Source of the DNA: Sclerotinia nivalis
Lineage: Eukaryota > Ascomycota > Leotiomycetes > Helotiales > Sclerotiniaceae
Direction of reading: 5' to 3'
DNA length: 64,000 bases
Assembly (NCBI GenBank): GCA_029531795.1
Contig: JAPEIS010000006.1
Span: forward strand, 2,604,001-2,668,000
Part shown: piece after piece, positions 1-22,683 of the stretch
Layout of the letters: each line of letters starts with the position of its first letter
How positions within the stretch are numbered: position 1 is the stretch's first letter
The notes under the pieces: model-generated
Database searches by the model: none
Told to the model about the DNA's origin: nothing
Seen by the model: the letters and a program-made list of their open reading frames with translations, nothing else
Made by a program: the position numbers and the translations under genes

Positions 1-3000
1 AGAAATCTGAACCAGTCAGATAATGAATTCCTTGTGTGCTGTTCTCGCGACACCGGCGAGATTGTTGTCGCGGATATGGAGAGGAAGTGGACGACCGAGG
101 GTTTAATGTGTCCCTGCGTGTGGAGTCGCGAAGGACTGTGTTCCCCAACGATTATAAGTAGTTTCATGTAGAAATAAAATGTTATTTCTCGTAGGCGCTT
201 CGGTGTGCATTATCATACCGATATGCTTTGGGTGTTGACTGAAGTCTTGAACTAAATCATTCCGACATTGCATCAACTTAGGTACGTACTAGCTTCTTTT
301 AAGTATTGGAAAGACTGACCTGAATATAGTGTTATGCTGGGCCCTAAGTAGAAATCAAGTTCATACTCTTCCGCCGAATCCGAAGCTTCTTTGGACGCGG
401 TCATTGACTTTGACAATTGCCAGAAATGTCGCCTCATCCAACGAAGATCATAGTGCCGACATCAACGCGGTCTCCTTGGTGCCTTCAGGTCTTTTCAGCG
501 CTGAGGCGGTAGTCTGAGCTTTACGAACTCCCCGCAGTTTGAAGACTTTGTGAAGCGACAAAGTAGACAGTTTTAATTTCCAACATTTTAACAAAAGGAG
601 ATTTCCAGCGCGTGCTTCGTATCAATCAGCCGCTTACTACTGCGGATTCGTTCACTGGAGCTTCTTCTTATTACAAGCCCACTACACAGGCCATCCCTGT
701 TGAGAAAGATGGCTGTACTCCTGGCTGAATTCTTTCTTAGCTCGACCGAAAAGTCGGTAAACTATTGCCTTGAAAGCATGCATTCAATACGCAGCAGCAC
801 ACACAAGAAGCATTAAGAACGTTTTCAGAAGGCCACTCTATGCTCGGATTTGTCTGGTCGCCAAAGCAAGATATGCTGATTGCTTTCTTGATGCAACCTC
901 ACACCTAACTATCCTACTTTTATCCCTCACTTCATGTCACCTCCATAAAAACAAACAGAAAAGAAGGAAACAAATCCAGAACCAAGGCAAGTAACAAAAC
1001 AACAACACCACCCGTGAAAGCGCCTTCGAGGCAATGGATCAAGCGGACGTAATGGCCAGGGAGCAGAGCTCGCTATGCTGTCAGCTTGACGTTACCCCTA
1101 CGGTGCCCGTTTGACAACATCCTCCCTCTGCCAATGGCTTCCTTCCAGAACAACTCGAGGCTTTCACAAAAGCTAGAAAAAAAGAATGATGCTAAGAATG
1201 CAATGAACCAGCGAATCAAAGACAAAGAGGGGGTTATGCGAATGAAGAGCGTGGAAGGACGCAAGGAGCTCTGATGATGTGGTGAACTCGACTAAGTGAT
1301 TTCATCCTTGCTGGTATGTTTAGATGGTTCAACTTTCTCAATTACTGGAGATGGAGAATTTTGGAGATTAAAATGTGGTGTGTGGAAATATGAATGGGTT
1401 AATATCAAGCTTTTTCTGTTCATTGAATTTATCAATTCTATGGTTGAAGAAATCGGAAGAGCAGAAGTGGGAGATGACATACGATTTCCTGCAGACAGGA
1501 TGTCGCCAAGACACTGTCTGGTTACACAGTCACAATCCTAGAAAGAGCAGTCATAAAAAGCTTGACAATGAGCAACTAGCTCTCGCGCACAATTCCTTGC
1601 CTTCGGCTTGAAGGGCCACGAGTACCGTTATGGTCTTCCTGACACCCTAAATGAGCAATGCTTTATCCAAACAGCTTGAGGATAGCGCTCATCTTTCAAG
1701 GGCTTCTTCTAGGTCCTGTTGCTAGGCCAAATAGAGATTGTATCAATACGGCTTGTTACCAATCTTCACACCAGAGTTAATCTTCCCTACTACAGAAAAG
1801 CCCTGTGTAGGATGTTGAAGGTCTTCCAATTGTGAGGTCCCGCCGCAGCTCCTTTCCACCGCTTTAACAAACTCAAGAGACAACCGTTTTCGTGGAATGT
1901 TTCATAATTATCATACCCATACAACTTGCGGTGCCCCCAGCAATGGAAGTGGATATGAATCATCAATCATCATGGAGCACTTTTGCAGTATCGGAAGTAC
2001 CCCGATGCCCAGTCTTCCTAGCTACACCAGCTTGAATCATTTTCAACGAGCTGTGGCGGCTCTTCCTGGCTACAGGGAAACCCTGTGTAAAAAGTTCAAC
2101 GCCTTCCAATTCCGGGCCTCAATATAGAAACCTCTACCATTTCCAACGGGCCTCAATGGCTGCTCGGATTACCTGTAACTCTGCCCTGCTGGATGAGAAG
2201 AATATAGCTGAGCAACAACTTGCGTAATGGCGGATCATTATACACTGAAGAGTCAAAGTCTTCCAGAGACCTAAGGGTGATGGTGAAAAAAGAAACAAAC
2301 TAGCTCAATGAAATTCTTTGTGAGAAGGCGGGAATATCAAGCTGTTGCGTTGCGCCATCAGCACATTCCGCAAGGTTGGTCTCAGGATAGCCAAAGCCCT
2401 CTCCAGCTTTGGTGCCTATTACCAGCAGCTGGAATCTCCCTTATCCGTCGCAGCGCCGGTATGAAATCGGCAAAATTTCGATCGCCTTCGTACTCAGACG
2501 GCCGATTAGATTCTACCACTTCTCCTTATTTCCCAAAGTGTAAAGAGAAGTGGTAAAACATAGAGGAGAAAAGAAATGACGCGAAATGTCAGAGCTCGAT
2601 AGGTCCCCCCCCCCCCCCCCCCCCCAAAAAAAAGCCATGCCTGGTTCCGCTAAGGCTCGTCTGGCTGTGCGGTCATACTTGGCCTTTGCCACCTGGTCGG
2701 GATTGAGTTAAGACTTCGTTCGATATCGTGAGAGTAATTTAAGTATTAAAACCCAACTGAAATCACGGATATCTTTAACGGAGATCAAGATACCATTGAG
2801 TCTGCGGCAGCAGCTCAAATATCTGTTTATTCTTACATACCGCCAGTTTACCGTTTACCCGTCGCATCGTGCATCAGTAGGATTGAGCGATTTATATCGG
2901 ACAGATCAGGTCGATAAGCCCGGAGCTGTGTTTAATTCATTGACAACAAGATTGGCTTAAAGTAAATATATGCGGAGAAACACAAAAGCCGTGAGGGTAT

Positions 3001-6000
3001 CATACTTCGGGATATCAAACCTGACGATATTCCTGGGTCCCGAGGAATATATTCATAGAGGGAATTTTTATCGTCTTTCTCGTATACTTTGAACGGAGGG
3101 TCTTCTTTTCTCGTGGGCGGCTTTGATCTGCTATTGGCGGTGGTGTAAGAAGTTTGCGAGATCTCAGCTTTTGTTCTGGGGTAGGAGCTCAGGGGAAGGA
3201 GCTCAGGGGAAATCGAGAGATATCAATAATCATAGATAGATAAATAATTTATAGTTATAATACTCGGCATTTCCTTTCAATGTCGAACTTGTATATTAGA
3301 ATTTCGAGTGTTAGATCCTTCAGTATCCGAATTTGGGCTACAATCTTTCGCCTCTTTCCCATCATAATTAACCCCACCCTCATCAACCCACCTCATTGGA
3401 CAAACTCCCCACCTCTCACGTGAATTTAAAAAGAGGGGTTACTTTTCTTTTTGTTGCATATCTTCTAACCCTAATTTTGAGATTGAGAGTGTTTTATCAG
3501 GATACAGTCAGTGGGTATCCCTAACCCTAACCCGATCGTTCTCCATCATTGAATTCACAAGTTCATGACTTTGCTTTGTATCTCGCATCACCCACCCTCC
3601 ACCAAGCAGTCACTACGTCGTAAATCACACTCACACTCACACTCACACCTCACACCATCCAAAGTTACACCACGGCCTTCACGCCTTCACGCCTTCACTT
3701 CAGAATCAATATCTACCCCGTAACCGGTTGCATTACACAATACAGTATATTCTAGAAGTATACACCATAACTGCCATTTAAATAGATACCTACCTTACCT
3801 AAGCAGATAGTTCATTTTGCGATCGAGATGGAGATTGTGTACCTATTTCCTATCTTTGGGTTGTGCGGGGTTTTACAGGGACTGATTGTATGATTGTTTG
3901 GTTGATTGATGAAGGATTCTGAGTATGCCGTGAGGATTTTGAATCTACCGTTCGGAGCGGTAAATGTGGTTATACATAAGGTTATTATTGGGATGAATGA
4001 AATCCTTTCGCTTTCTTTTAGTTGTTCTTCCTCTTACTCACCTCACCTCTTCCTTACTTCTTAATACCTAAACGTCTAACAGCTACTTTGAACTTCACGA
4101 AATCTCCCATCCAAAACTCAAAACACAAAAACATGAAAATATTGGTGGCGCCCTATAGTAGGTATCCAAGTCATACAACCTCACAACCTCACAACCTCGC
4201 AAATTCAAGGAAGTAAGGTATGAAAATTTCCGGATGCCTGCATTAGATTGTGTTCTAAACGGTTGTTATGATTCATGAATCTGGAAATTTGGAAATACAA
4301 GATTGTGATTGATTGATTTACGTGGTAAGGCTGGATTATTGAATGCATACCTTGGGTGTTGTCCTTGAGGTTCTTGTTGGTTATTGGGTTGAATGGGAGA
4401 TGAGTGAGGTTTGTTTATTTGGATATTGTTATGCGGGATATTGATATTGATGTCTAATTCGCCAAATGTCTGTAATCGAAATGAAAGATTCATGTACGGT
4501 ACTGGACCTGCCTCGCCTGCTTGCCTGCTTGCCTATATACTATCAGCTTGCTTACTTGCTTACACAATATCCAATTTTGTACAGCAAAGAGGCGCCCTAG
4601 TACCTTCTTGGTGCTGTAAATAAAAGGGGAAAACGCATGTACTTATGTTCACAGCCGGCAGCCAGTGCGATTGTACGATTCTGTGCTTATGGTTACACAA
4701 AACGATTTACGCCTTTTACGCCTTTTCCGCCTAGAGAGCGCCTTTGTATTTTTGTAGATTTTTTGGTACAGTCAATGCTGAATCCTGATATGGGAGTATT
4801 TGGTTCCGAGAGTGCATGGAGTACTAGATGACTTCTTGTAAGATTACCGAAAGAGATGGATGGATTTGAGGAGCCGAACCGTTGTTTTATTTTTTTGGTT
4901 CAGGGTATCTAGATTCTGTTGACCCTTACTGTAAAGAGTATTGGTTTACCATTGCAGAATGCATCTCATCTGCATCTCACCATCTGTATCTGCTCTGCAT
5001 CTGCTCTGCATCTTCGTACAATGGATGTGAACTGTCATGTGAAAAGGAATGAGCTATTTTGAGACCCGCCCCCAACACATGATGGCATTGAAGACCCCCA
5101 CGCATCGCCTTACCTTACCTGCCGTCCCTCCCCATCCCAAACTTCCCTTCCCTTCCCTTCCCTTCCCTTCCCTTCCCACCACTCCACTTCCAACATTTTT
5201 CGTAATATCATGTCCATAAACGCAAACGCTCATTTCGGTCAACATCTCAAAACGCTCATACGAATCGCGCAAATTCGTCAGATGGCGTGGCCTCCAAAGA
5301 CTTTCTTGAACGTGCGACCGGGGATATTACTTGTTTAGGGGTTTGGGGCTGGATTGAGACAAGGGTTTCTCGGGAGAGATCTAGAATTGGTCGGGTAAGG
5401 GTCTGGGCTTGTGAATGCGGAAAAATGGGGCTGGTCGAGACTTTTGGGTTTGGTTGGTGAGAATGAAGGATGAGGGAGGTTTTTTTTTCAATTTTTTTTT
5501 TGGAATGATTTTGGGGATTTTGGGGACTTGGAGGATTTATATTTGTAGAGTACTCTGAAGATATTATATATATCTTACCAAGGTACAGGTACAAATAAAC
5601 AACAATCACATAAGATCTATTCCCTAGTAAACTAATCGGTGAGCACATCCGCATCGTAACCATGCCTCACCCCCAAAATTCAATAGCCTTACTCGTCTCG
5701 CTCATCTGGTTACTCCAACCCCAAGGATGGCGCATATAATGGCACATAATGGCACATAATGGCTTACAATGGCTTTTCTACCTTGTAATACAATAGTATC
5801 TCTTCCCAAAAGGTAGATGAATCTTTTGAAAAACCTCTAATCGAATCTAGATATAGTCTAGATGCAAGATTTAGGTTTTTTGACTGGTGCAATGCCAGCC
5901 ACATGGGTCCTGGATACATCTATCCATCGACAGATAAAGAATCTCGGGATGGTAATGACTAGGTATGTATTTCGCAATATTAATTGTTTTCCTCAATATG

Positions 6001-6894
6001 TATGCTCCATAAATGATCATAAATGGAGAGGAATATGTATAGATGATGATAGTAATACTTTGAATTAGATGAATTGAGGCATAATAATGGATATTTGTTC
6101 ATCTATTGAATCTATCTAATCGAATTCTTTTAATGGGACAATAATATTTTGCCTATATCAAAAAGATATCAAATCAATCTATCTGCTTGGACTGCATGCA
6201 GCAATGTTAGACTGACAGATTTTGCATGGACTTGCGCCCACAACGCCTCAAGAAGAAGAGTGGAGAGTGGAGAGTAGATAATGTGGTAGAGCAAGATCAA
6301 ATATATCATTCGAGCACCCACCCCCACAACATAAGATCTTAGCATTTTCTTCAAAGAGTGTATCAACGGCTTCAATTTATATACAAGGGATTTTTTGGGG
6401 TTCCTTTCCAACTACTGTCATTCTTTTTTTTGGATTTGCTTTTTTCGGATCTTATCTGCATTCTATTTTGAGGTCTTCACCTCTTGCGATAGTTCCTTTT
6501 TCTATACATTTCGAATACGATACGAGAAGATACGACAACTCACTTGGAATATACATCGACGAGGAAGAAAGGAAGGGAAAGGAATAAATCGAAAAACATC
6601 AGACGAGTACACTTACCTATCTATCTATTCGACCTTCAAACCTTCAAACAATCATCTTCAATCATTATCCGGCTCGGGACGAATCATTCGGAACGGAAAG
6701 GATATTACAGGAACATTATTGATTGTTCACTCGTTCCAGATCAATTAATACGACCCTCTTCATCAAATTGGATAAATTGAACATCTTCTTTCCACCGACA
6801 ACTATACCAGTTGTCGATTCGTATAGGAAAAGTGATGCTGGAACCACGATTATAAAGATATACCGTATATATCTTTATTTATCTTTGAACCAAA
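1..6894. other. No supportable gene (left flank)
   Basis: Only short, low-complexity or composition-biased open frames are present and none resembles a protein family I know. A C-run followed by an A-run lies at about 2607-2631. CT/CA-rich simple sequence occurs near 3630-3660 and CCCTT repeats near 5140-5177. Two imperfect copies of a roughly 50-bp sequence (about 1791-1842 and 2069-2120, both containing CCCTGTGT and CTTCCAATT) suggest an old decayed repeat. The last 500 bases, with CT-rich stretches and short upstream ORFs, are probably the promoter and leader of the downstream surface-protein gene. Confidence 0.5.
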
Positions 6895-8626
6895 ATGGAT
6901 AGAACTATGGAAAAGATGGATGGATCTTCTTCACAATTGTTCATTTCTTCGCAACCATTCATGTCGCACGATCCCACGGCATCAATTATCTCTATCCCTA
7001 TCCTTATGCACATCCCTACCATCACAAAAAGGATATCACATTTAGGTGTTTCTAATCAAGAAGTTTCTCTCACAACCACAACATCATCGACATCGACATC
7101 ATCTTTCGAAAAATACACATCTTCGACATCTACTTCCAAAAACTATACAACCTCAAATTATACATTTCTTTCCCCAATTAATATAATAATATTTCTCACC
7201 ATTTTTTTCTCCTTCTTCATCCAAACATGTTCGGCGGAATTTTACATTGAAGAACGAATGATTGATGTGAGAGAAGATATCCCCGAATTATTCGCATCGA
7301 CGCTCGCACGACTAGCTAGATCTGGTACTATTTTAGTTGATCAACAACCCGATCCCTCACTACCACGCGATTCGGTACCGGAATTTAAGACTTGGGAAAT
7401 TACTCATACAAGTAGCTTTGATTTAAGTATTGATGAAGAGGAAGAAAAAGCCGCAAGGGAAAATAACAATTCAATTCAAAATCAAGACAATCAAGACAGA
7501 AGTTCAATTCGAGATCTAGAATCAACTACCAAAGAATCTGAATCTGAATCTGAATTCGACTCCAATTTCAATATCGAAAAAAGAAACGTAGCAACAATAA
7601 CCTCTACAGCAACCATCACTCCACCTAAAACTACAGGTACAGCAACAGCAACAGTTACGGATTCTTCCTCTTCAACACTGGCTTCTTCAGAAACGAGTAG
7701 TGGACAATTGTCCGCTGCGACTGCGACGACAAGTTTACCAACTCCGTTTGATAGTGGGTTTACGAGTAATATTACTTCAACATGTTCGAGTTTTATGATG
7801 AATTTCTTGGCGAATGAAAGTTTTAAAGCTTGTTTGCCTTTTTCATTGTTGTTGCAGGTAAGATTATGTTTTTAGTTGTGATTTTATCTTTTTTCATTCA
7901 ATGGTTGTTATCCATCACGCCAATTAACACATTTCCATCCAATTCATCCTCCATCTCATCCATCCCTCCAATCAACTGTTCAAGTCCAAAACTAATACAA
8001 AATCGCAGAACTCAAATTCTTTCTTCCAAGCCTCCAAATCCATCGTCCGCATTACCCAAACCCTCGATGCCTCCTGTTCCGCAAACGCCCAATCATGCTC
8101 CAACCTAATGAACTCCATCGCCTCTAACATCACCTCCCCAACCGCCTGTTCTACAGACCTCACCGCCGCCAACCCCCTCGTAACCCAAGCTCGCCTAGGT
8201 CTCCTCGCCTACTCAACCCTCTACACAGCATCCTGTCTCAAAGATCCCACCAACGGCGCATACTGCTACGCTCAAGCCGTAACAAATACCTCTTCTCCTA
8301 CCGATTCCTACATCTACTATCTACCCGTCAACGTATCCCTACCGGGCGGAAGTCAACCAACATGTAACTCGTGTTTGAAAAATACCATGGCGGTTTTTGA
8401 ACAAGCGGGTGCGGTGAGATCGAGTGCTATTGCGGGGACTTACGAACAGGCGGCTGGTATGGTTGATGTGCAATGTGGACCGGGGTTTGTGAATGCGAGT
8501 TTACCTGCTGCGGCGGTGGTTACGGGGGCGGCGAGTAGTGTGAGGATGGAAGGTGGAGGTGCAGCGATGAATGGAATGGCGGGGCTGTTAATGCTTTGGA
8601 TTATGGTATTGAGATGGTTAATATAA
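6895..8626 (+). CDS. GPI-anchored cysteine-rich surface protein (DUF7729-like)
   Basis: Two exons, 6895-7857 and 8009-8626, joined in phase 0 across a 151-nt intron (GTAAGA donor, ACTAATAC branch region, CGCAG acceptor), encode about 526 aa. A hydrophobic segment at about residues 97-115 ends in CSA, like a signal peptide. A Ser/Thr-rich, acidic linker follows, then a C-terminal cysteine-rich domain (CLPFSLLLQ, TCNSCL, CGPGFVN). The last 20 residues are hydrophobic after a small-residue patch, typical of a GPI-attachment signal. This pattern matches the fungal family I know as DUF7729; its function is unknown and a cell-wall or plasma-membrane location is inferred. The signal lies unusually far from the first Met, so the true start may be in an unrecognised upstream exon, or the segment may act as a signal anchor. 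Confidence 0.75.
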
Positions 8627-9106
8627 ACGAGAATACTGCATTTTCTTATATTGTGGTTAAATGAGAAGGAACGTATAAGGCCAAGCCAGGCCCAAAACCT
8701 CGACTTAGAGAGGAGGCTTAATATACATTACATTAATACGTAGGGGGACGCACGAGCAAACTCTTTTCTTCTTATGGATACGAAACCTAAGTCGTGAGGC
8801 TCAGTTGTGCAGTGCAGGTTGGATAGGATAGGAAATATACCCAGGAATTGGATCGGAATTGGATTGGATTTGGATTGGAATGGATTGGGATGGTATTTTC
8901 GGGGTTAGGAATAGGAATTGGAATAGGAAGGGTGCTTTTTGAAACAGGGTGGGATTTTGAAAGAGAGAGGATTTTTAAAGAGAAAGAGAGGGAGAGTATA
9001 ATTCTTTTCTTTTCTTGCATAGAGAGAGTTATATTAGACAGATAGATAGATAGTTATAGTGTATATATTATATTATATTATATTATAATTTTATAATCTA
9101 GCTCGC

Positions 9107-9199
9107 GGTGATGGTGATGGTGATGGTGATGGTGATGGTGATGGTGATGGTGATGGTGATGGTGATGGTGATGGTGATGGTGATGGTGATGGTGATGGT
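9107..9199. repeat. (GGTGAT)n microsatellite
   Basis: About fifteen perfect tandem copies of the hexamer GGTGAT. Read on the minus strand it gives an apparent poly-histidine open frame, which is a by-product of the repeat. AT repeats flank it. Confidence 0.95.
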
Positions 9200-9925
9200 T
9201 ATAGTTATAAAGGTTATCTGATGAGATTGATAATAATCTCCTTCTCAATATAATCAATCGTTGATATATATATATAGATCTAACGGAAATACATAGCAGG
9301 ATATATATTCCCATCGAATCCTTCCGATGATTTCGAAGAAGGCGGGGTGGGGAGTGGATGGGTTGGTTGGTTGATGGGTTGGTTGATGGGTTGATTGGTA
9401 TTTATTGAATTTTGAACTTTAAGTTTTTATTTGGTTAATTAGTTATGATTAGATTGATAAAAGTGAATTTTTTTGGTGTTTGTTGTTGGTTGTTGGTTAT
9501 GGTGTATATAGATCTTTATTATTTTTTTTCGCTTAATGGGAGTTTAATAGTTAATTCCTCCTCTAAAGGTTTAGGCGGCGGGTTGCGGTTGAGATCAATC
9601 GAATACCCTTTTCCCTGTCAGATGTGGCAGTTGAGAGGAGATAGCGCGACGATATCGATGCATATGGGAGCGCTTGGCCATGGTATGGCGGCTTTTAATT
9701 TGGGACTTTGCGGGGGGAGAGGGAGAGAGGGGAAGGATGGGAGATGGTGGGAGTTAGAGTTAGAGTTAGAACGGCAGGATGGGACGGGAGGGGTTAGTAC
9801 GGGGAATCGGGTTTGAATAAGGGTATTAGGGTAAGGTAAGGGCAGGGCAGGGTAAGAGTAGGTTAAGGGTGATCTTGCACTATATGTAAGATTAAGATCA
9901 AGATTAAGATTAAGGTTAAGATTAC

Positions 9926-10037
9926 TGTAGAGTTGTAGAGTTGTAGAGTTGTAGAGTTGTAGAGTTGTAGAGTTGTAGAGTTGTAAAGTTGTAAAGTTGT
10001 AAAGTTGTAGAGTTGTAAAGTTGTAGAGTTGTAGAGT
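9926..10037. repeat. Octanucleotide tandem array (AGTTGTAG)n
   Basis: About fourteen tandem copies of an 8-bp unit AGTTGTAG. Several units carry a G-to-A change (AGTTGTAA), and the array fades into AGTGGTAG and AGTGATAG variants at its right end. Confidence 0.9.
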
Positions 10038-12909
10038 GGTAGTGATGGTAGTGATAGTATTCGTCGCGTTTTCTTTTGATGGATCTAATTTGATTTGTTT
10101 GTTATATTGGGGCGGGGAGGGGGGTATAGTGTTTGGGATTGGAGGTCGAGTTTATTGGTTTTTTTGTAGTTATTAGCTATTATGGTGTTTAGTGAGTGTT
10201 TATGCGTGGGGATCTAGATTTGGGTTTGGGTTTGGATGGCATTATATGGGAGACTGGGGATTAGATTCGGGTGCTGTTCGATTCGTTCCTCGCAGGGCTT
10301 CGGGAATGCAGGGTGCTGATTTGGTGGTTAGAATTGGGGGGTTTCTTTAGGTACTGGTGTTGATTTTTTATGGTTTGTGTAAATGCTGCGAATGAACGCA
10401 TTTGTGTTTCCTGCAGCTATAGGGGGTTCGGTAGTAATGATCTGAGTCTTTGGTTCGTTAGAGAGGGTTTGCTCTAATAGAATTATTAGGGTGTTATTTT
10501 CATCCAATATCCCGGTTTTTAATACCAGTTGTTGGAATTCAGTATAGAATATATATGTATGGAAGGGTTGGTTTTTTTGTTTTAGATTGATCAAGAGCTT
10601 TCGGGGCTTCGTTTGCTTTGTTTTGATTTCCGTATACATACTCGTTCCTGGATTTCTAACAGGTTTTTATATTCCTATTCCTTTAGCTTGCTGAATTCTT
10701 CTTTAATACCTAGGTATTGTATGATCGGATCTGTGCTGCAGTGTTATTTGTAAGTCGTTCATTTATATAGGTTAAATGGGAGTGTGGGTTTGTGAATCGG
10801 TTAGTATTTGTATGTATTTTATTCTGGATGTGGTCTATTAGTTCTTCTTGAAATTCATCAGGCCATGCAAATACAGAAGGTTAACCATACCTAATCCCTA
10901 TTTAACTAACTTACTTGCTAACTTACTTACTTGTAAAGTGATCCAAATCAGATTTGGTACTATCGAAGGGGTACTGGTACTGGATCAGGAAGTTTCTCGC
11001 TTAGCTGAGCTCTAGTTAAAGCGATAGATATCGATGGGCTCGAAAGGATTGGGATAAGTACAGGAGTTGGGGAGCAGGAGTTTCAAACGGAATGGATGCG
11101 GCTTGAAGGAGGCGAGCGAATAGTGAATCGTTTTGTTCTGTATACGGCGAAGGATAATATTGTTTTGTTCTATTATATAACAAAGTATAGCTTTCTGGCT
11201 TCGCAGTTCTATAGTCAAATCAATGTTCTGCCGGCCTATCTCCTGAGCCTCGATCTGTGGATTGTTGGTTTTTGCCTCATTTCCTGGGAGTACGAGTCCA
11301 TAGAAGCAATGTATTGGTACCGTGTTACTATATCACTTTTTACGGCATTGAAATTCTTCTGATATATCGGGCTGGCTTGGGGGTTGGGGCGGGGTTGATA
11401 TCGCAAAGGTGTTGAAATGGGAAGGAGCTATGTAGTATTATAAGGCTGATAGATAGGCTAGGTATATGCAGAATAGATCTATATTCGGATTAGTGCGGTA
11501 GGGATTGTGAGAAAGTTGGATTACTTGGGCCACATACGTAGCTAGTTCATAGGTATTAAATCACATAATCCTTCGTAGTTAAATATAAAAAAAAGGTTTC
11601 GCCTTCCCTTCTAGAATAATCAATCGTTTTTTACTAGTATTTTTGTATATCTATTATATACAATCCAAACCCATTATTAATTCTATTAGTTCTACTATTT
11701 AAAGTTTATACAATATAATCTGATCAATTTGTATCCTATTCCCCCTTACAGCGTACTATCGGGATGTACGTGTCTCGATCTACCTCTTTCACAGTATAGG
11801 AAGTATAATAAAACCGAGCTCAAAGAACTATAAATCAAACAATATATTGAAGGGTTTTTATAGTAGAACGAGTCTCGCTTTACCAATATATCATAGGGTT
11901 GTTATCCACAGGGTCCGCTGACCCCGTGACAGTTTAATATTAATATTAGAAATAATTATACTATATTGTATTAAATAGTATAAACAAATTCAAAACTCTC
12001 TGACAAGTACATCAAATTATCATTATTATATCTTTGTATTCTAACGTTGTATATCTAATGTTGTATATAACAAAGTTTCAGAATAATTATATATCGAAAA
12101 TCGGACTTCTGACAATCCGGACTTCTGGTATTGTTTATGGCTAAAGTAGGAATTACAAATATCCTTTTCATTTTATCACAAATCCTACAAAATTTCAATT
12201 GTAAGGCGCTTTTATATTTTTGAAGTTCAGTGTGGTGAATGAGTATCTTACTTCTTTGTCAGATCTTGGAAAATATACCTCTTGCTTGACTTCTTTTCTC
12301 TTCCTCAACTCTCTCTTGCTCAGTTTTTCATCTAGCTAAAGCTTCGCAGAAGTCTAAAGTATCTGGATGATCAGATCTTAAAATATATTTGAGATGATAA
12401 ACATTCCTTTATAAGTGTTATAGCATCGATTATTCTACTTATACCTTTCCGTGTAATTGCCAGATTTTGCATAGACCTTAACATATCTGAATGGTCCATT
12501 TCAAGTTTCTTTTTGCGAATCTCCATCACTTGCATCTCTAATTATGTTGCGGAACCCGGGCACTTTTGGTATAAAACTTGAATTGATTAATTGTTGCTAG
12601 CTAAACAGTTAAGCTGCGAATATATCTTCAATAAAGGAATGTAGTTAGTTATTCGGCCTTCGGAATTCATGATGCTTTGAAAGAAAAATATTGAAAGCAA
12701 ATAATAAAAGGAAGGAGTCAAAAATTCGAGGTTGTTTGCTCTCTATATGCATTACCAGAATCATGCTGAATCCGCAACAGCCACTCTGTGTGCAGGTCCT
12801 CGGTCCTTGAATGAAAGCAAACCAAAGAAAAGTTCATCAACTACATATGTCCAATTTTCCTTTCTGTCTCCTCATGGTACCCCTATAGCTTTCTGTGTAC
12901 ATTTTGTAC

Positions 12910-13839
12910 TTATTCTTTGTGAACATGTCGGCTATTGACGTAGCTAAGCTCAGGTTCACGCTTGGAGTTCTGGATAGCGGTTAGTGGATAGCTTGGAGAG
13001 TGGGATTTGCTGAACATACGACGTAGCTCAATTCAGGCTCACGCTTAGAATTGACATAGCTCAGCTCAGGCTCACGCTTGGAGTTCTGGAAATCTGTTAG
13101 TAGCTACATTGTTGAACCAGAATTGTTGAACATATATACCACATAGCTCAACTCTGGCTCTCGCTTAGAGTTAACGTAGCTGAGCTCAGGCTCGGCTTCA
13201 CGCTTGGAGTTGACGTAAGTCAACTCCGGTTCGCGTTTGGAGTTGACATAGCTCAGCTCAGGTTCACGCTTGGAGTTCTGAAAATCTGTCAATAGAGATA
13301 CACTGTAGCATAGGAAGTGCTAAACAAACCACATAGCTCAGCTCAGGCTCTCGCTTAGAATTAACATAGCTGAGCTCACGCTTAGAATTGACATAGCTCA
13401 ACTCAGGCTCTCGTTTAGAGTTGACGTAGCTAAGCTCTGGTTCACGCTTAGAATTGACATAGCTCAATTCAGGTTCGCGTTTGGAATTGACATAGCTGAG
13501 CTCACGCTTAGAATTGACGTAGCTCAGCTCGGGCTCTCGCTTCGAATTCTTCACTTCTGTGAGCTAGATGCTAAACCATAGCTTTATGAAACATACCACG
13601 TAGCTCAATTCCGGTGCGCGGCTGTTCACATAAGACAGCTCTGGGTCACGTTTAGCCATAAACCAATCGAGCTGAGCATACTCGGCATCTAACACACCTC
13701 GAGCTTCAACTTCTCCTGCTAAAAGTCAGTGATGATATTTTTGTTTTCAGGGAGGATCCAGACCTTGGACAGGGCTCATAGGAGCAGCATAAGTGAGACT
13801 GATGATGGCCATAGCCAAAATTGCGGTCATTCGAGCCAT
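12910..13839 (-). CDS. Secreted multi-repeat precursor peptide, probable dikaritin-type RiPP
   Basis: Assembled by eye as six exons on the minus strand: 13839-13764, 13715-13597 (or from 13718, a NAGNAG acceptor), 13548-13330, 13277-13140, 13085-13020 and 12969-12910. The product is about 225 aa. The first exon encodes a signal peptide (MARMTAILAMAIISLTYAA). After a short pro-region come sixteen units of consensus NSKREPELSYV; one unit has ELTYV. Nearly all are separated by the dibasic Kex2 site KR. Spacers after the cleavage site are EP (11), none (2), EAEP (1), DP (1) and AP after a single R (1), as expected for Ste13-type dipeptidyl trimming. The inferred released peptide is ELSYVNS. Each unit has one tyrosine, the residue UstYa oxidases cross-link in known dikaritins. 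Two UstYa genes and a UstYa-like gene lie within 9 kb. A Kex2-processed signalling or pheromone-like peptide is the main alternative. Confidence 0.85.
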
Positions 13840-15518
13840 TTTGAGGGAGGAGTCTTGAGAATGTTGGGATCTTGTAGTGTATTTGTTGTAGCTTGACTTA
13901 AAAGGATTTATGTTGGATTGAATGGTTAGAGAAAAGTGATGCCAGCTCTCTAGTCACAGCCAGTTTATATAGATCATTTTTGACGTTCGAAGGAAATGAA
14001 AAAGGCATGGACTTTTTTGGTCTACCGGCAAGGCCGATGGGAAGATCCGAAGGTGGTGCACAAGACTATTCGATAGAGTTACATGCCTCGAAATATTGTA
14101 ACTTACCGTTATCTTGTTGCCGATCTATTCTTTTCGGTCATACAAGAAATGAAAATTCTGGTAAAGAACAGAGTTGTAATACGTTTTGAGACATACATCT
14201 GCATGCATGACTAACGTAATCTGCCTGCATGCATGACAGACGTGATCTGTAACAACGAGTTGGTGAGTCTATGAGATTATGAATTCGGTAACCGAATTCA
14301 AACCCGAGACCGAATTGAGGAATCTGAAAGGTGTACGAAATCGTTAATTAGATCCTAGTATTGTTATAGAGTATATCGGTAAGTCAAATTTCGTCGAAAA
14401 CGGCGCATTCCAAATCAGCAAATTATGAAACCATACAGAAATCCCCGCTGCAATTAAAACCTAATCGAAGTAAACATTCAAGAAGATGGCTCAGTCTACT
14501 TTTGCTTTGGCACCAATCCACTGTTTATGTTTGCAGATGACAATTCGTATAAGCACTAGTATTATAAATCACTTTTAGACACATGTATCTGCATGCATGA
14601 GTGATTTCACACCCTTTCGAATACAGAGCTAATTGGGTTACATACGTGCAAACGAGGATTATGTGGCGGGGCAAGCGGGGTAGTGATAGAGTGGATCAGT
14701 AGATCGGTAGATCGAAAAAGGGGTGGGGGCTCGCTAGGAGTAGATCAAATCGATTATGAGTTTACTAATACTACTACTGCGGTGTATCTTAACATATCTC
14801 CAATTCATTTATTCCGTGCATACAATATGATCCTCACAAACAATGATGCCACTTTTAGATGTCTATCTGAGGTACGACTGACGTAAATTTTATATCTAGC
14901 TAGGAGCTAATTGGGATACAGATGCAAAAGCATCTTGATTTTTCCTTCTTGGCTGCTGATCTATCTACCCACGCTGATTCCGTACATTCAAATCTGAGCC
15001 CGAAAATGGTAAACCCGTCAAAACCCGCTTAAATCTGGTCTCGGAACCCTTACACACTATGCAAGATAATCTTTACAGGTAATGGTGCTACAATATACTA
15101 TTAGATACATATCTGTATAGTCTCTTCTCCTCCAAGTAAAGGTCGAATTATTATGCGTACGACCGGCCAAAAAAAATAAGTTTTGCCACGGGAACGGGAG
15201 GGTAACCCGAAACTACTGTCGTCTTGCATGTTCCCGCCTGAATTGGCTCGTATATTCCTACTAGTTCTAGATAATCGTACATAAGCAGGCTTATCTTGTC
15301 CTGGCTGAAAGAGAGTATAATACTCTTCTTCTATCTAAATCGAGGTTACAAATTGACTGCGGAGAAAGTTAATGCGAGTTCGCGTAACAGATCAAAATAA
15401 TCGAACCTTCTTTTAAGTTTCAACCCTAGTTTAGCTAAATAAGAGTAAACTAAAATCTAATTAGCTATTCAAATTAGCGGCTAAAATATAGATCAATAAA
15501 AAAATATGTCATGGGTAA

Positions 15519-15588
15519 TCATATGACTGCTGATCTACGATCACCATACCCGATCATATGACTGCTGATCTACGATCATCATACCCTT
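15519..15588. repeat. Tandem 35-bp direct repeat related to LINE 5' end
   Basis: The sequence ATCATATGACTGCTGATCTA plus its continuation CGATCA[C/T]CATACCC occurs twice in tandem, about 35 bp apart. A related sequence (GGGTAATCA, AATCATATGAATGGTGATCT) forms the 5' flank of the LINE at 50197-50240. The following bases (about 15605-15700) resemble the region at 57375-57520 downstream of the LINE duplicate. It is therefore probably an old retrotransposon remnant. Confidence 0.6.
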
Positions 15589-16405
15589 TCTTTTTTATTA
15601 ACTACCAGGCTTTTCTAGGTCTTGTCGATCCTTACGATTGTCAATCCTTTTTTGATATGCTATAGATCGAAGTTTAGTCTAATTGATATATTGTTATATC
15701 GATAACGATCACGGATCCTATGCTAATCGATCGTATATACCTACAATCTAATTCTTTAAGGTTACTATAGGATTAAAACCCTTGTGAGATTGCATTAGTA
15801 TAATTGTTCTTAGTATAAGATCGAATTTTGTAATAATCGTAACTTATATAATCAAATGATCATATAATAAAGTTTTGAAGTTTGAAGAATTCTATATACT
15901 CTTGGAATATAAAAGTTTTTAAAGTTTTTAAAGCTTCTAAAAGATTTATATAGTCAGAATGGAATCTCTTATATAAAGCTTTGTATTCAAGAATAATTAT
16001 TAGTTTAAATACTATAATTATTATATAATACGATTATTTATATCCTTATTTTATTAGACTTCTATTTGATTTTTAGTAGAAACTATTATGATTTTTCTAT
16101 TAATTCTTTAATCACTTTTATATAATTAGAGATTGTAACGATATAATATTTTGAATATTTTTATTAATTCAAATACCGATTTAGTTTATTTTATTTCCTT
16201 AAAATATCTCTATACTTTTTATACAATTTCTATTTGATCAATCCAATACAATCCGATCCTCTCAATCACTTATCTAATTAAATCAAACTTTACAAAAACG
16301 AAAAGAACAATTATGATTATATAAATAATAATTCATCTATAAAATCTAAAAAAAAAAGAATTCTTCAATTCAGTAAACTAAAAGATATAATTTCCTGATA
16401 TAATA

Positions 16406-16509
16406 TGTCACGGGGCTAGAACTCTACCACTAGGCCACGAAACCCCTAAAAGGGTAGAAGTAGTTTGATCGGTATCAACACTACTCGATAGAGTTATGAA
16501 CCCGTGACA
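16406..16509. mobile_element. MITE-like 104-bp element with terminal inverted repeats
   Basis: Left end TGTCACGGGGCTAGAACTCTA without its last base, and right end whose reverse complement is TGTCACGGGTTCATAACTCT, form imperfect inverted repeats of about 20 bp. TAATA flanks both sides (16401-16405 and 16510-16514) as a likely 5-bp target-site duplication. The size, ends and duplication fit a non-autonomous DNA element. A very small solo LTR (TG...CA ends, 5-bp duplication) is an alternative. Confidence 0.6.
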
Positions 16510-17618
16510 TAATATATATATATAATCTTATAAAGATCTCAATCCTATACTAAATTAAGAAAATCGAATTGCTTTTGTATATAATCGAAGCTCCATCATC
16601 CGATTAGCTATTGTTATTATAACAATACAATAATAGTATACTCAAAAAATATATACTTTCATCTATGAAATCATATAAGAAAGAAAGATGATCGGAACAG
16701 ATTTAATTCTAATTGAATCAATTCGATTATCAATTTGATCAATTTGATTAATTTAATTAAATTATTCAATTATTATATCTACGATTATTTTATATTTCTT
16801 TTTCTTTTTATTGAAACTTTCTTTTTTCAGGAAGTTTTCCAGATCATTAAATTGAAGTCTATCAATTTGATCAATTTAGTCAATTTGATCAATTTGATCG
16901 ATTTATTGAATCAACAATTCAACTTATACGATTTACTCAATTAGCTTAACTGAATCGTGAGTTTCTATAGAACCTGGTTTTTGATGAATAGAACAAAGGA
17001 ATAAGATATTCGAAGACGAGCTTTTTTTGAAGAGGGGGGGGTAGTGTCACGAATCTGGTATGGGCTTATATGATTTATTGTTATGTGTACGATCAATTAT
17101 ATGTTTATAACTAATGTATATATACAGTTGCTGTTTACAAGCCGTAATTCTTTAATTGTAGATTCTAAGAAATATAATTGATCTTGTTAATTCAGCTCTT
17201 ATACGGCTCTTGTGCGTCACAACCATTGGTTGTTAAACGAGGTATCGAAAATTAAAAAGTTGTTATTCGGGCCATTTATTGTTAAATATATTATTATTAT
17301 TTTCTTCTAAAATAAATTAAAGGATTTTATTTATTTTTTACAATATCAACTTAGAAGGAATAGTGAACTAATTTCAGTGGAGAAAATAGAGTTGAGAGAA
17401 GAACTTCCGATTCTATCAACTTCATCAGTTGAACACTGTCCGAAGTACAGACAACCCGAGTACTGGTTTATGATTTACCTCATACCCATTAGCTGCACGA
17501 CTTAGAAAAGACCCCATATTCTGCATTTCGTTTGAAAAACAGCTACTCTATCATTGACCTTCTGTATCCGCATTTTTCTTCTCACTTCTTCCATCGTCAA
17601 CGTTTTCCATTACCAAAA

Positions 17619-18678
17619 ATGGGTTTCAATCAACGCATATTACAGATGTTCAACCACAATAAAACATTTACGTATGCAGAATTGAGCCCCTCACTTGCAA
17701 ACTCGGATGGCGAATATCAAGATGAGGATCGACTTCTCAACCGCTTTTCTGCTGGCGGTGACTCATTCGAACACACTGAAAAAGGACAGCTTAACAGCTG
17801 CCACAAGAATCACTCATGTTTGAGGTGTTTGGGCTGGCTAAATGGACTTTTCTTTTGCCTGTCCCTTTACTTGTTCACAGCAGCCATGGTCAATTGGAAG
17901 CAAGTTCCAGGCGGAGGGGAACGAAACTGGGCCCTGAAGCAAGTCTCGGAAATATGTAAGATTCAAATCATCCCCTCTACTCAAGATAACTCTCACTGAG
18001 AATGTTGCAGCTCCGGTTCTGGATGCGATTGACATTCCACTTTCTACCTGGCGACTGAATGGCACCTTCTTGGAAAGTGAGCACGAATCAATCTATCGTC
18101 AACCTCCCTCTCCTGAAGTTGACGCAGCCTGGGCTCGTATTGAGACTCAGAATCCAATTCCTTTGTCCAGACAGGACCTCGTGAACCAAGGCAAAGATCC
18201 AGAAATGTATGCCAAGTTTCCAGAGTCGTTCGGCTTCGGCCCAGACGCCTTCATCGGAAGAATCGATGTCTTTCACCAGATTCACTGTCTCAACCGGTTG
18301 CGGATGCATCTATGGTGGAATGTGGATTACTATTACCCAGATGAAGAGATGGGCAAATACCACCAGCTTCACGCCTCTCATTGCGTGTACGCCTTGCTTC
18401 AGAACCTTATGTGTCAGGGTAACGTCGATACCTACGGACACTACTGGGTTGATATGCAGGAGAATGCAGTTCCGGATTTCAATATCAATCACAAGTGCCG
18501 TGACTTTGAAGCCATACTCCAGTATCACGATGAGATCGCAATACCACTGGAGAAGTTTGGTGCTTTGAGGCGACCTGAAGGAGAACCGGTCAGGCATATG
18601 ACACATGAAGCGAAGGAGATATTTCGCTGGTTTGATAATCACCCAGACAATGGACAAGATGGGACAGAGATTTTGTGA
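17619..18678 (+). CDS. UstYa/DUF3328 family oxidase
   Basis: Exons 17619-17955 and 18011-18678 flank a 55-nt GTAAGA...TTGCAG intron and encode 334 aa. An in-frame Met 29 codons upstream (17532) exists, but the Met at 17619 has the better context and gives the usual short cytosolic N-terminus. A single membrane segment lies at about 71-91. The family's paired motifs are HQIHC (201-205) and HASHC (233-237), followed by HKCRDFEAI, the usual C-terminal element. UstYa proteins are thought to be copper-dependent membrane oxidases that catalyse oxidative cyclisation of Kex2-released peptides in ustiloxin, phomopsin and asperipin pathways. Its neighbour is the repeat precursor at 12.9-13.8 kb, so it probably acts on that peptide. 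The family also occurs in other secondary-metabolite clusters. At 334 aa it is longer than typical members, mostly through its N-terminal tail. Confidence 0.92.
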
Positions 18679-19392
18679 TTGAACAGGCTTATTAACTGGC
18701 AGCCTAACACTCAAGAAGAATATAGGATTTTTTTAGTTGAACATCTGCAGATAGCATTAGCAAATTTGAATACGCAAGCTTTGATCACCGAGCCTGAAAG
18801 TTATAAACTTACAGTGGTATATTCGAAATTTGGCTTCTCTTTCAAAGTGACCCCCTAGTAAAGACTGTAGTTTTATTGGTGAAAGAGGGGCAAAAATAAT
18901 CTGCCTAAAGTTTGAGATCACTTCGTTTCACAATACGAAGGCCATTAAAGGCATCTGGTTCCCTTCATCCTCTGTAGCCCATGCGAGTGCGACCTGACCA
19001 GCAAGAGATATTTGTTGATCAACGATTAGCTAAAGTTTCTTCACCGCTGCCTCAGAAAGGCAATTTTCAAAACCTCGTTATTCCAAAATGTACTTGAATC
19101 TAAAAACTGTTTAGAGGGGGGTATCTGAGAACTATAGGAGGGGGCGGGTAAAGGCTACAGGATTATGTGTTGGCAATACGCTCACTGAGTGGCCGAAGAT
19201 TATCACTAATTCAACAAATGCTGGATTGCTTGCAATGTAGATCATATTTGGACTTAACAGTGCTTCTCAAATTCATGGTTATCGAGCATACTATATCCTC
19301 CATACGTATTCCTAATATCCACTGGAACTCGTCCTTATCTCCCCACAATACAGATCCAATAGTTGGCTTCTTTGTCCTCCTGTGCTCGAAAC
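18679..19392. other. Intergenic between two UstYa genes
   Basis: No gene is seen in this 0.7 kb. It is the convergent 3' region between the plus-strand UstYa gene and the next, minus-strand one. Confidence 0.6.
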
Positions 19393-20191
19393 TCAGGTTA
19401 CGGGAATAGCGCGATGACTGAACACACTAGTCCGACCAAGAGCTGCTCTCCAGACCGGCTTATTTTCACTGAGAAGCACTTTTTCCCGAAGAGCACTGGC
19501 GTTGCGGCATTGATGCTCGTGGCCCATCCCATCTATTCCATCTACCACTTTGCCCATGGCGTTGGTTGTTGGTTTGGGAACTTCAAGGGTATCGTCGGCT
19601 GTACAAATGATTCCCTAATAGATAGTACAATTTAAGCATAATGATACTTCCGTGAACAAATCAGAAAACACTGACCTGAGCGATATAATCCAGACAGTGG
19701 AGGAAATGAAGTGGGTTTTTCGACCATTCGGCCCCTTGGACTTCATGGTCATGATTCATGGCCCCACCAAACAACATTGTCCTGATCATTCCCAGACAAT
19801 GCAACTGATGAAACATAGTCACGCCGTATCCTTTTGTAACTCCGTCTCCTTCGTCGACCATTATGAAGCCGCCATTTGGGGTAAGGAGATATTCATCCCA
19901 GTTCACATCTTCAGCATCACCAATTGCAGCCTCAAGCGCTGGAATTGGTTGGAAAACCTTGGGATAAAGATCACTTGTTGGTGGGTTCTGGATTGTGGCT
20001 CCAGCAGTGTTGCCTTGAGCTTCGGGACAGATCTGATACACAACAAGCTTTTGGACTGGGGCGATGAATGGAAGTAATTCTTTGTGTGCTAGCAGAACAA
20101 AAGTCGATATAATTGCTGTGGACAGAAAGATCGTGTATAAAACGAAGCGAAGAGGATGTGAGCCAGTGTTGGGTTTAAATTTGTTTTCCAT
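19393..20191 (-). CDS. Second UstYa/DUF3328 family oxidase
   Basis: Exon 1 (20191-19676) and exon 2 (19614-19393), joined in phase 0 across a 61-nt intron (GTCAGT donor, TATTAG acceptor), encode 245 aa, the usual family length. There is one membrane segment at about residues 14-35. The motifs FHQLHC (H128, H131, C132) and HFLHC (H162, H165, C166) are present. The second exon supplies the conserved C-terminus: GIICTADDTLE, then DGMGHEHQCRN. The gene converges with the first UstYa gene. Two UstY-type enzymes are commonly required together in dikaritin pathways (UstYa plus UstYb in the ustiloxin pathway), so this is probably the partner enzyme. The precise bond formed cannot be predicted from sequence. 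Confidence 0.92.
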
Positions 20192-21759
20192 GGTGGCAGC
20201 GGTATGGCTGCTGTAAAGGTGCGAGTACTATCTATGATCAGAAACCAAAAGCTATAAGGTGGGAAGGAATGGGAGCTACATTTTCCTAAATACAAAAGGA
20301 GAGGGACAGGGCTTACATGTGCTGGGCCTTATGCTATAGTGGCCGATAGGAAACTATCTGAATTTTTATGCTCAGATGAATTATTCCAAGCGAGTATTTA
20401 GGACATAATGAAAGATACAGAATTTTTATAGCTGGAGGAACCCAAGTGGCCGTTTTATTGGCCTTGCCTTTGAATTCTATAGTGAGGATATAGGTCGTAC
20501 GTTAGTCATTCGGAGCAGATATCTGAGACGGACTCTGATATCAGGGAAATTCCGAGTGTCACGTAAATCGTATGAGCATACATCAGTTTTTGAGCGAAGC
20601 TTTAGTTGGCTCTAATGCTTTTTAATATTACATTATAAATTTTTTTAAGATAAATTCTTAGCCTGTGATTATATTTCGTTATATTTATCGGTACTATTCT
20701 TCAAAATTAATTATAGTATCAAAACTAATTATAAGTTAATAACTTCGATTTAAGTCATGGTATAAAATATCTTTATTTATTAAAATCGATATAAATTAAA
20801 ATAAATATATTAGAATTATAATAATATTTCTGATAGCCTACTATTAATTTCAATAATTTAATCTCTAGATCTCTAGAATAAGAGATGAACTAGAAAAGTC
20901 TCTTCATCTTCTAATGTGTTTTAGTTACTAAATTAGCTTATAATTATATGCTAACTACTGTATGACGAGAGAATCGAGTACGAGCTCACAATTGTTATAA
21001 TCATATAATAAGAGAGTTAAATGCCGATTCGGAATCTATATTGTTACTCTAATAGAGAAACTTCGGAAGAAGTTTATCTTTGTAAAGTGCCTTTACCTTA
21101 GGATAATTATCCTTGCTTCAGCTGACATCTAATCTCTAATGCATGCTAAGTTCACACAATAAACGTGGCAACTACCAGGCCAAGCCCTTTATAATCAGGT
21201 TGTGTATTGATGATTAAGACCAATTGAATTTGATTTCACGATAATTATCCTTGCTTCTAATGCATGCCAAGCTCACACAATAAGTGAGGCAACTACCGGG
21301 CCAAGCTCTTTATTGTTAAGATAGTCGGATTGTGTGCCGAAGACTCGAAGGCTAACTAAATTTGACCTAACGATAATATCGCCGCCTCCACAATCTACCC
21401 TTTCATCGACAACGTCATACAATTGCTGCAAGTGGGCATGTAGAGGTGGGGGTCGCAGAAATGTTAAAGATACTTCGTATGGTAGCTGAAGCTGTATCAA
21501 GTTCTCTGCAGGTGCGGTTATACTGAAGAATATGCGATATAACACCTGACAGCCAAATAACCTTGGGGATTGATCTAAGCCGACAAGCTCTAGCTCTTGT
21601 ATATTGTCAGGGTTAATCCCATCGCCCACATCCTTTGATATATCCAAAAAGTCTTGCCTAGCTATACTTCTCCTTCTCGGAGTCTCTCATAACCTTCAAC
21701 CTTCAACCTTCAACCTTCAAATCTTCTTTCTTTCTTTATCCGCATACGATCTACGTATC
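20192..21759. other. Intergenic, AT-rich in the middle
   Basis: The divergent promoter region between the second UstYa gene and the third UstYa-like gene. From 20.6 to 21.1 kb it is very AT-rich. Two similar segments (about 21128-21190 and 21247-21310), sharing AATGCATGC, CACACAATAA and GGCAACTACC, are an imperfect direct repeat about 119 bp apart. No coding region was found. Confidence 0.55.
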
Positions 21760-22683
21760 ATGTCAGCTTTATCCACTCCCGAAGCAATACACTACGAAGA
21801 AGGTCTCGAGGACCAAGAATTCCAGTCAGAGAAAGGGGATAGCGATGATTTCTCCAAAGCAGACGAAGAAGATTTATTTCTCGAGCGCCAAAATTTCCCA
21901 TCTCACCGAAAACAACACAGCAATAAGCGGAAAGTCTACTTGGTGACCGCATTCGCTGTTCTCATTTGCCTCGCATCTATAACATTCGGAACATACTCCA
22001 CATTGCGCTTTCAGGCCTTGAAACACAACTGCCACGGCGCGGATACTCAACAGACGTCACCGTCAGAACACCACTCTCACGAAGGCCAGGGAGGAGACCA
22101 CGAACACAAGCATGAGCATGAGCATTCCCCGGTATCATCCACTCAGACAAGCTACCCAATACGCCCAGACCTCGATTGCGGCGACAGCGAAGCTTCCGCA
22201 AAAGCCGCAGGCTGCACCTTCAACTTCATGGCCTTCTCGTACGTCCCAGCCGCATGTAACGGTAACGAAACCATGACGCAATTCATCGACGAGCACGCAA
22301 CCCTACCTCTGGATGGAGCCGGCATATTCCCCTGGTACCGCTGGTCCAACCGCACGGAGCCCGTACCGCAAGATGCGGAGCAGCTCAGCAAATATCCATT
22401 TATCTGGACGACGCACGAATGGCATATTGCGCATTGCCTGTACAACTGGGCACTGACCACAGCTGCGATTACGAGGGTTCTCGCCGGCGAGAAAAATGTT
22501 TGGATCTTGCAGGATGCGGTTCTGGGGGGCCATATTGCGCATTGCAATGGTTTGGTGTCTGATAGGGTGACGAGCGGCTTGACGCCCTTGAGAGCGTTCA
22601 GGGCGATTGGACGTTGTGTTAAACTAGATACTGATGGTATGGCTACTTTGGGCAAAGATCCCTATGGGAACCATGCGGATTGA
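21760..22683 (+). CDS. Atypical UstYa-like membrane protein with His-rich stretch
   Basis: A single open frame of 308 aa is read from the Met at 21760; an upstream in-frame Met at 21604 would add 52 unlikely residues. It has an acidic cytosolic tail, a membrane segment at about 59-81 and then an extraordinary His-rich linker (about residues 88-122) with repeated HEHEH-type runs, suggestive of metal binding. The C-terminal domain contains two HxxHC motifs: H222-I-A-H225-C226 and H258-I-A-H261-C262. It lacks the HQCRD-type tail of typical DUF3328 proteins, so I place it as UstYa-like rather than a standard member. Its position next to two UstYa genes suggests the same pathway. A transporter or other membrane protein cannot be excluded. 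No intron is seen. Confidence 0.7.
   Translation: MSALSTPEAIHYEEGLEDQEFQSEKGDSDDFSKADEEDLFLERQNFPSHRKQHSNKRKVYLVTAFAVLICLASITFGTYSTLRFQALKHNCHGADTQQTSPSEHHSHEGQGGDHEHKHEHEHSPVSSTQTSYPIRPDLDCGDSEASAKAAGCTFNFMAFSYVPAACNGNETMTQFIDEHATLPLDGAGIFPWYRWSNRTEPVPQDAEQLSKYPFIWTTHEWHIAHCLYNWALTTAAITRVLAGEKNVWILQDAVLGGHIAHCNGLVSDRVTSGLTPLRAFRAIGRCVKLDTDGMATLGKDPYGNHAD

Follow-up and report, generated by a model that had tools for sequence, protein, structure and literature searches.

A probable UstYa-type RiPP gene cluster with a sixteen-core repeat precursor in Sclerotinia nivalis

Biosynthesis of phomopsin needs a tyrosinase gene. A tyrosinase is also needed for ustiloxin, whose precursor UstA is described as having a signal-peptide-like N-terminus and 16 tyrosine-bearing cores with Lys-Arg (KR) sites, accompanied by two DUF3328 genes encoding UstYa and UstYb (PMC6514808). 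Asperipin-2a is made by a small gene set (aprA, aprY, aprT, and aprR) without a tyrosinase and with one DUF3328 gene, a UstYa-type cyclase that acts on the short tyrosine core FYYTGY (PMC6514808). Epichloecyclins, encoded by gigA, are nonapeptides which derive from a Kex2-type repeat precursor with an internal core tyrosine, to which the N-terminal Ile is linked (PMC9233826). KR-bounded repeats with XA/XP spacers for Ste13 are likewise found in alpha-pheromone precursors (PMC6339444). A Kex2-type repeat precursor together with UstYa/DUF3328 genes is the published signature of ustiloxin-type ribosomally synthesized and post-translationally modified peptides (RiPPs). In a kingdom-wide survey, 1758 of 7878 Kex2-processed repeat proteins (KEPs; 22 %) had DUF3328 neighbors, most commonly at the adjacent gene (PMC7329392). 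Among DUF3328 enzymes, CctR is reported to act as a dimer in a hydroxylation that depends on copper and oxygen, with its HxxHC pair regarded as the site that binds two coppers; the same two dependences are reported for the cyclase AprY (PMC12435403). Here we describe a locus from Sclerotinia nivalis, found in a 64,000-nucleotide stretch of contig JAPEIS010000006.1 (assembly GCA_029531795.1, positions 2,604,001 to 2,668,000 of the forward strand), which is referred to as the window. It holds a repeat precursor gene, two UstYa genes (Y1 and Y2), and a UstYa-like gene (Y3). The locus is probably a small RiPP gene cluster of the UstYa/KEP kind, in which the precursor is trimmed and the resulting peptide is oxidized by Y1 and Y2.

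Removal of five introns from the minus strand (13839..12910) yields a precursor of 226 amino acids (aa), with splice sites picked by eye with the repeat in view. The N-terminus is hydrophobic (the hydropathy peak, 2.76, falls on AILAMAIISL) with a T-Y-A cleavage site assigned by eye, and a short leader ends in AKR at residue 49, followed by the core array. The array contains 16 EL[ST]YV cores (15 ELSYV and one ELTYV), and tyrosine is present in 16 of 16. The initial annotation had placed sixteen such repeats between KR sites; the number of repeats stands, while the flanking pattern is less regular, as 15 KR sites were counted and the units of 13 of the 16 cores are bounded by KR on either side. 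An R-AP link joins cores 1 and 2, and core 16 (ELSYVNS) runs into RHVHKE without a KR. The spacer following KR is EP in 11 cases, EAEP in one, and DP in one, and is absent in two. The central claim of the same annotation, a Kex2-type repeat precursor beside two UstYa genes, was borne out and corresponds to the published signature; both genes that match PF11807 sit within 8 kb of the precursor.

The 16 cores, of seven residues each, agree at 111 of 112 residues, while the proportions of synonymous (pS) and nonsynonymous (pN) differences over the core are 0.82 and 0.065, respectively (120 pairs). Therefore the core copies are not recent and the core is maintained by purifying selection. Synonymous changes make up 11 of the 15 distinct single-site changes from the consensus, compared with 22 % of all possible changes (hypergeometric P 6e-7, a value that is indicative only because the core copies share ancestry). 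All five introns are spliceable in frame, and the four that lie in the repeats cut at the same point, in phase 0 between V and NS, so that removing each restores the repeat unit. Introns 2 to 5 are mutually alike, with P<=0.022 in five of six pairs (1000 shuffles) and pair 2-5 as the exception; for intron 1, none of four comparisons with the other introns fell below 0.05 (1000 shuffles). Because introns 2 to 5 resemble one another and the period of the tandem repeat equals exon 5 and intron 5 combined, the array probably expanded as exons were duplicated together with their introns, and this lends further support to the splice model.

HxxHC pairs spaced 20-60 residues apart in one open frame occur at three places in the window (18274-18384 plus, 19694-19810 minus, and 22423-22545 plus), all inside the cluster region, in Y1, Y2, and Y3. 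In all three proteins the most hydrophobic 19-residue stretch is close to the N-terminus, starting at residue 73 in Y1, 16 in Y2, and 59 in Y3. This combination of HxxHC(x)nHxxHC with a hydrophobic N-terminal segment is also described for CctR (PMC12435403), which differs in that it hydroxylates cyclochlorotine; moreover, no DUF3328 model matches Y3. Among the named relatives of Y1, those from Botrytis cinerea and B. aclada score best (88 % identity). In the predicted structure of the B. cinerea relative (mean predicted local distance difference test, pLDDT, 73.9), helices 198-220 and 228-248 carry the invariant HxxHC residues 201-205 and 233-237, and this modeled placement of both motifs on successive helices fits the description of CctR. 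A fold search with the same protein against the PDB gave 24 matches, none at E<=0.001, and a sequence-profile search found no PDB chain at E<=1; therefore nothing was inferred from solved folds.

Table 1. Coordinates of the features of the locus (positions within the window).
Feature	Position	Strand	Description	Basis
Precursor gene	13839-13764, 13718-13597, 13548-13330, 13277-13140, 13085-13020, 12969-12910	minus	6 exons	Splice model and repeat count
Likely signal peptide	13786..13839	minus	Residues 1-18, MARMTAILAMAIISLTYA	Hydropathy; cleavage site judged by eye
Tandem repeat	12934..13193		116-bp period, suggesting joint duplication of exon and intron	
AT-rich stretch	16001..17000		Between precursor and Y1, GC content 0.234	
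Y1	17619-17955, 18011-18678	plus	UstYa/DUF3328, 334 aa, 2 exons, HQIHC and HASHC	PF11807, 179 bits
Y2	20191-19676, 19614-19393	minus	UstYa/DUF3328, 245 aa, 2 exons, HQLHC and HFLHC	PF11807, 74 bits, C-terminal half
Y3	21760..22683	plus	UstYa-like, 307 aa, single exon, HIAHC twice; cluster membership uncertain	Motif scan

The signal-peptide-like N-terminus, the 16 tyrosine-bearing cores with KR sites, and the two DUF3328 genes of the ustiloxin cluster recur at this locus. In contrast to ustiloxin, the core is ELSYVNS and not YAIG, its tyrosine is internal instead of first, the spacers are EP and not ED, and no tyrosinase match occurs in the window; the introns inside the repeats may be a further difference. 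With asperipin-2a the locus shares a small gene set lacking a tyrosinase, a short tyrosine core, and genes of the UstYa cyclase type. However, it has two or three such genes instead of one, and counterparts of the asperipin-2a transporter and reductase were not recognized. Its likeness to the epichloecyclins lies in the repeat precursor and the internal tyrosine, whereas core and fungal lineage are different. The processing sites resemble those of alpha-pheromone precursors, but the pheromone-type core was found in a separate gene. The initial annotation had found the core unlike those of known dikaritins, and this agrees with the lack of any match to ELSYVNS, SYVNSKR, or LSYVNS in the main texts of the papers searched (the supplementary KEP tables of two fungal surveys were not covered). 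In a protein search with the precursor sequence, among 7994 candidates scored, one distant relative was found (P0001, a metagenome protein from the Joint Genome Institute; E 8.7e-4, 37 % identity) and no other match. P0001 has a signal-peptide-like start, KR sites, EAEP and DASP spacers, and three EELMYVNS cores, and both leaders hold AQLD followed by W or Y; it differs from the precursor in also having GIAYDAAKFE-type cores.

KR sites and XP/XA spacers suggest pheromone-type trimming by Kex2, Kex1, and Ste13, which would release ELSYVNS. In the pathway that we infer, the precursor would enter the secretory pathway and be cleaved by Kex2 after each KR, a Kex1-type carboxypeptidase would strip the KR, and a Ste13-type dipeptidyl aminopeptidase would strip the XP/XA spacers. 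Judged from their sequences, units with no spacer or with EP, EAEP, or DP would all give ELSYVNS, and one unit would give ELTYVNS. The proteases would be the general ones of the cell, with genes at other sites of the genome; contig C5 has a kexin-type gene, which matches S8 and the P-domain, and C11 has one DPPIV_N match. Y1 and Y2, which belong to the membrane-anchored DUF3328 copper-oxidase family, would then oxidize the peptide, most likely at Tyr4, and Y3 might serve as a third oxidase. By analogy with the family, the product would be a cross-linked (cyclic) or hydroxylated peptide, possibly one with bioactivity. The computed [M+H]+ is 811.3832 for linear ELSYVNS and 809.3676 after loss of 2 H. 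This would provide a mass-testable peptide for the Sclerotiniaceae, for which the literature searched gave no named UstYa-type product and, as the only Sclerotinia case, a candidate RiPP cluster on chromosome 3 of Sclerotinia sclerotiorum that encodes paired DUF3328 proteins (PMC6941272).

The third UstYa-like gene that was initially annotated holds up as far as its paired HxxHC motifs and N-terminal hydrophobic segment are concerned, but not in its family assignment. Y3 has no Pfam family match, and PF11807 was not listed for eight Y3 relatives at E up to 10, a range in which the HMMER filters drop most weak matches. Comparison of Y3 with the UstYa profile gave hhalign probabilities of 3.0 and 4.7 %, aligned on one HxxHC motif and not significant, and the AlphaFold model of Y3 (pLDDT 39.7) is too poor to use. 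The named relatives of Y3 that score best are from Stromatinia cepivora (87 %), Botrytis, and Sclerotinia. Two HxxHC motifs are present in eight of eight relatives compared, and Y3 itself has a membrane helix as judged by hydropathy only. In the S. nivalis genome, searches with two single proteins turned up four members of the family, on contigs C6 (the window), C11, C1, and C2, with some of the cross-matches being weak (E 0.003 to 0.03). An alignment of the window protein, three relatives, and the C11 and C2 members (with one typing slip in the C11 row) shows DCG, a further GC-type Cys, another Cys, and both HxxHC motifs to be invariant. Three of the four members lie at UstYa loci: the one in the window, the one on C11 with a KEP and UstYa, and the one on C1 with UstYa and tyrosinase matches. 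The C2 member (L042, G000:C2:1450000-1459999, 4423-5190 plus) was found on a contig without a PF11807 match, and its 10 kb contain no second HxxHC-pair protein.

In B. aclada, the relatives of Y1 and Y3 are on separate contigs (EAE96_003837, 3.39 Mb, and EAE96_011017, 2.36 Mb, respectively). In B. porri, the Y1 relative is on a 2.20-Mb contig and the Y3 relative on a 1.95-Mb contig, a length that refers to a cluster of three sequences. Although Y3 is present in Sclerotinia and Stromatinia, neither is named in the best 120 of 140 Y1 matches, where unnamed rows could hide some. Y3 is a plausible partner in the cluster, but its part is unproven given the separation seen in B. aclada. A bolder and rather doubtful proposal is that Y3 represents a family of its own, made up of membrane copper oxidases that Pfam does not detect and that recur beside UstYa, and that here it would work with Y1 and Y2 on Ste13-trimmed ELSYVNS to form a type of cross-link unlike those of ustiloxin, phomopsin, and asperipin. 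Apart from this proposal, the locus points to a group of UstYa-like proteins that would escape Pfam-based cluster finders.

Several observations weigh against the UstYa/KEP cluster. A gap of 3.8 kb that includes AT-rich DNA separates the precursor from Y1. DUF3328 enzymes are also reported to act in non-RiPP pathways (PMC12048977). A protein search found no precursor in Botrytis, although Y1 relatives are kept there; therefore Y1 may have other substrates, or the Botrytis precursors may be unannotated or different, and annotation may have missed multi-intron repeat precursors in that genus. Besides the cluster proteins, the Pfam scan covered 36 of the 74 window open reading frames (ORFs) of at least 100 aa, and none of these 36 was recognized as a tyrosinase, methyltransferase, P450, peptidase, or transporter. 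The accessory set of ustiloxin and phomopsin (methyltransferase, S41 peptidase, monooxygenases, and transporter) is likewise not found among them. Tyrosinase (PF00264) has 18 matches genome-wide and none on contig C6, hence none in the window; some of the matches adjoin UstYa matches on C7, C1, and C11. Finally, the share of UstYa loci that hold a KEP (8 of 24 in the genome, the window included) speaks for such a cluster but has no random-locus control from the same genome.

The alpha-pheromone-type gene of S. nivalis, recognized by what we take to be the alpha-pheromone core pattern, is a separate gene on contig C1 (L040, G000:C1:2847784-2848727) with 12 WCGRPGQPC copies and XA/XP spacers; a mating pheromone was thereby ruled out as the product of the window precursor. 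The precursor could instead yield an unmodified linear secreted signaling peptide, a pheromone-like hormone, with the adjoining UstYa genes being coincidental and having other substrates. In favor of this, ascomycete alpha-pheromones usually show XP/XA spacers behind KR as a Ste13 signature (PMC6339444), and the pheromone gene of this genome has them too; against it, another UstYa-linked KEP of the genome (L023, with DAQP) also carries XA/XP spacers. In the survey, 78 % of the 7878 KEPs lack a DUF3328 neighbor, which would make a coincidence easier, as would the retention of Y1 in Botrytis, where the protein search turned up no such precursor. However, the KEPs annotated there as pheromones are without DUF3328 neighbors, with three exceptions, whereas two UstYa genes lie close to this precursor. 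Moreover, the core has tyrosine, as do 65.6 % of the repeats of UstYa-linked KEPs compared with 38.2 % of others (PMC7329392). A linear hormone is considered unlikely. Far less credible still is a gene that has decayed or fallen silent, with repeats alike only through recent duplication: the last core without KR and the R-AP link of the first core pair would suit decay, but synonymous divergence among nearly invariant cores and five introns spliceable in frame would not. A structural repeat protein can be dismissed as very improbable: the Pfam model 'Mucin-like' (PF16058) matches the spliced protein (149.7 bits) and exon 3 with flanks (54.5 bits) and matches nothing else in the genome nor any of five other scanned KEPs, but a match reported for an algal-culture ORF (PMC7594059) suggests a loose repeat model, and processing accounts better for the 15 KR sites and their variable XP/XA spacers.

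The preferred reading, a UstYa/KEP cluster, has parallels elsewhere in the genome (50.3 Mb scanned, 31 contigs), where at least 45 exon matches to PF11807 were grouped into the 24 loci. KEPs were sought in 10 kb around each of the 23 UstYa loci outside the window. A strict scan found repeat precursors at six of the 23 (L019, L023, L024, L026, L029, and L030) and, as the sole control, gave no match in the rest of the window (1-12000 and 23701-64000). A looser scan yielded one more (L022), chosen by eye among many chance matches, some with stops. Because a KEP accompanies UstYa at 8 of 24 loci and the published survey reports such neighbors so widely, the window cluster is one of many UstYa/KEP pairings.

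Of the inspected loci, L026 (G000:C7:1580000-1589999) comes closest to the ustiloxin/phomopsin type in its gene content: its KEP with four YPDYRR units (3646-3876 minus) has a tyrosinase match (C7:1585637) and four exon matches to UstYa (C7:1584470-1590022) in its vicinity. Three UstYa loci have long arrays: L030 (G000:C10:599500-609499, 1942-2811 minus) with 14 LLYGYGQE units, L029 (G000:C3:702000-711999, 1392-1910 minus) with 10 AEDGDEDTSIIY-type units, and L019 (G000:C4:1047500-1057499, 436-1128 minus) with 10 FVPTVVPYADY-type units. The precursor of L023 (G000:C11:881500-891499, 2958-3446 plus) has mixed cores, four of the TNYFYAVGAE type and two NNSYIVGPEKR, and this locus also holds UstYa and a Y3-like frame at ~1785-2114 minus. 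Six GFFNNGD units, with no tyrosine in the unit, are found at the UstYa locus L024 (G000:C9:67500-77499, 8139-8522 plus), and four AYAWAVDAE units at the UstYa locus L022 (G000:C16:1007000-1016999, ~3000-3250 minus).

To the left of the cluster, the window contains two open frames matching DUF7729 (6.9-8.6 kb), and to the right a GNAT acetyltransferase, an ARMT1-like phosphatase, a response-regulator protein, CAF1, FSAF1, and histidine biosynthesis. An ORF of 1270 aa at 51865-55674 plus is of the retrotransposon type, with matches to endonuclease, reverse transcriptase, and RNase H, and a long run of the six-base repeat ggtgat was seen by eye at 9108-9197.

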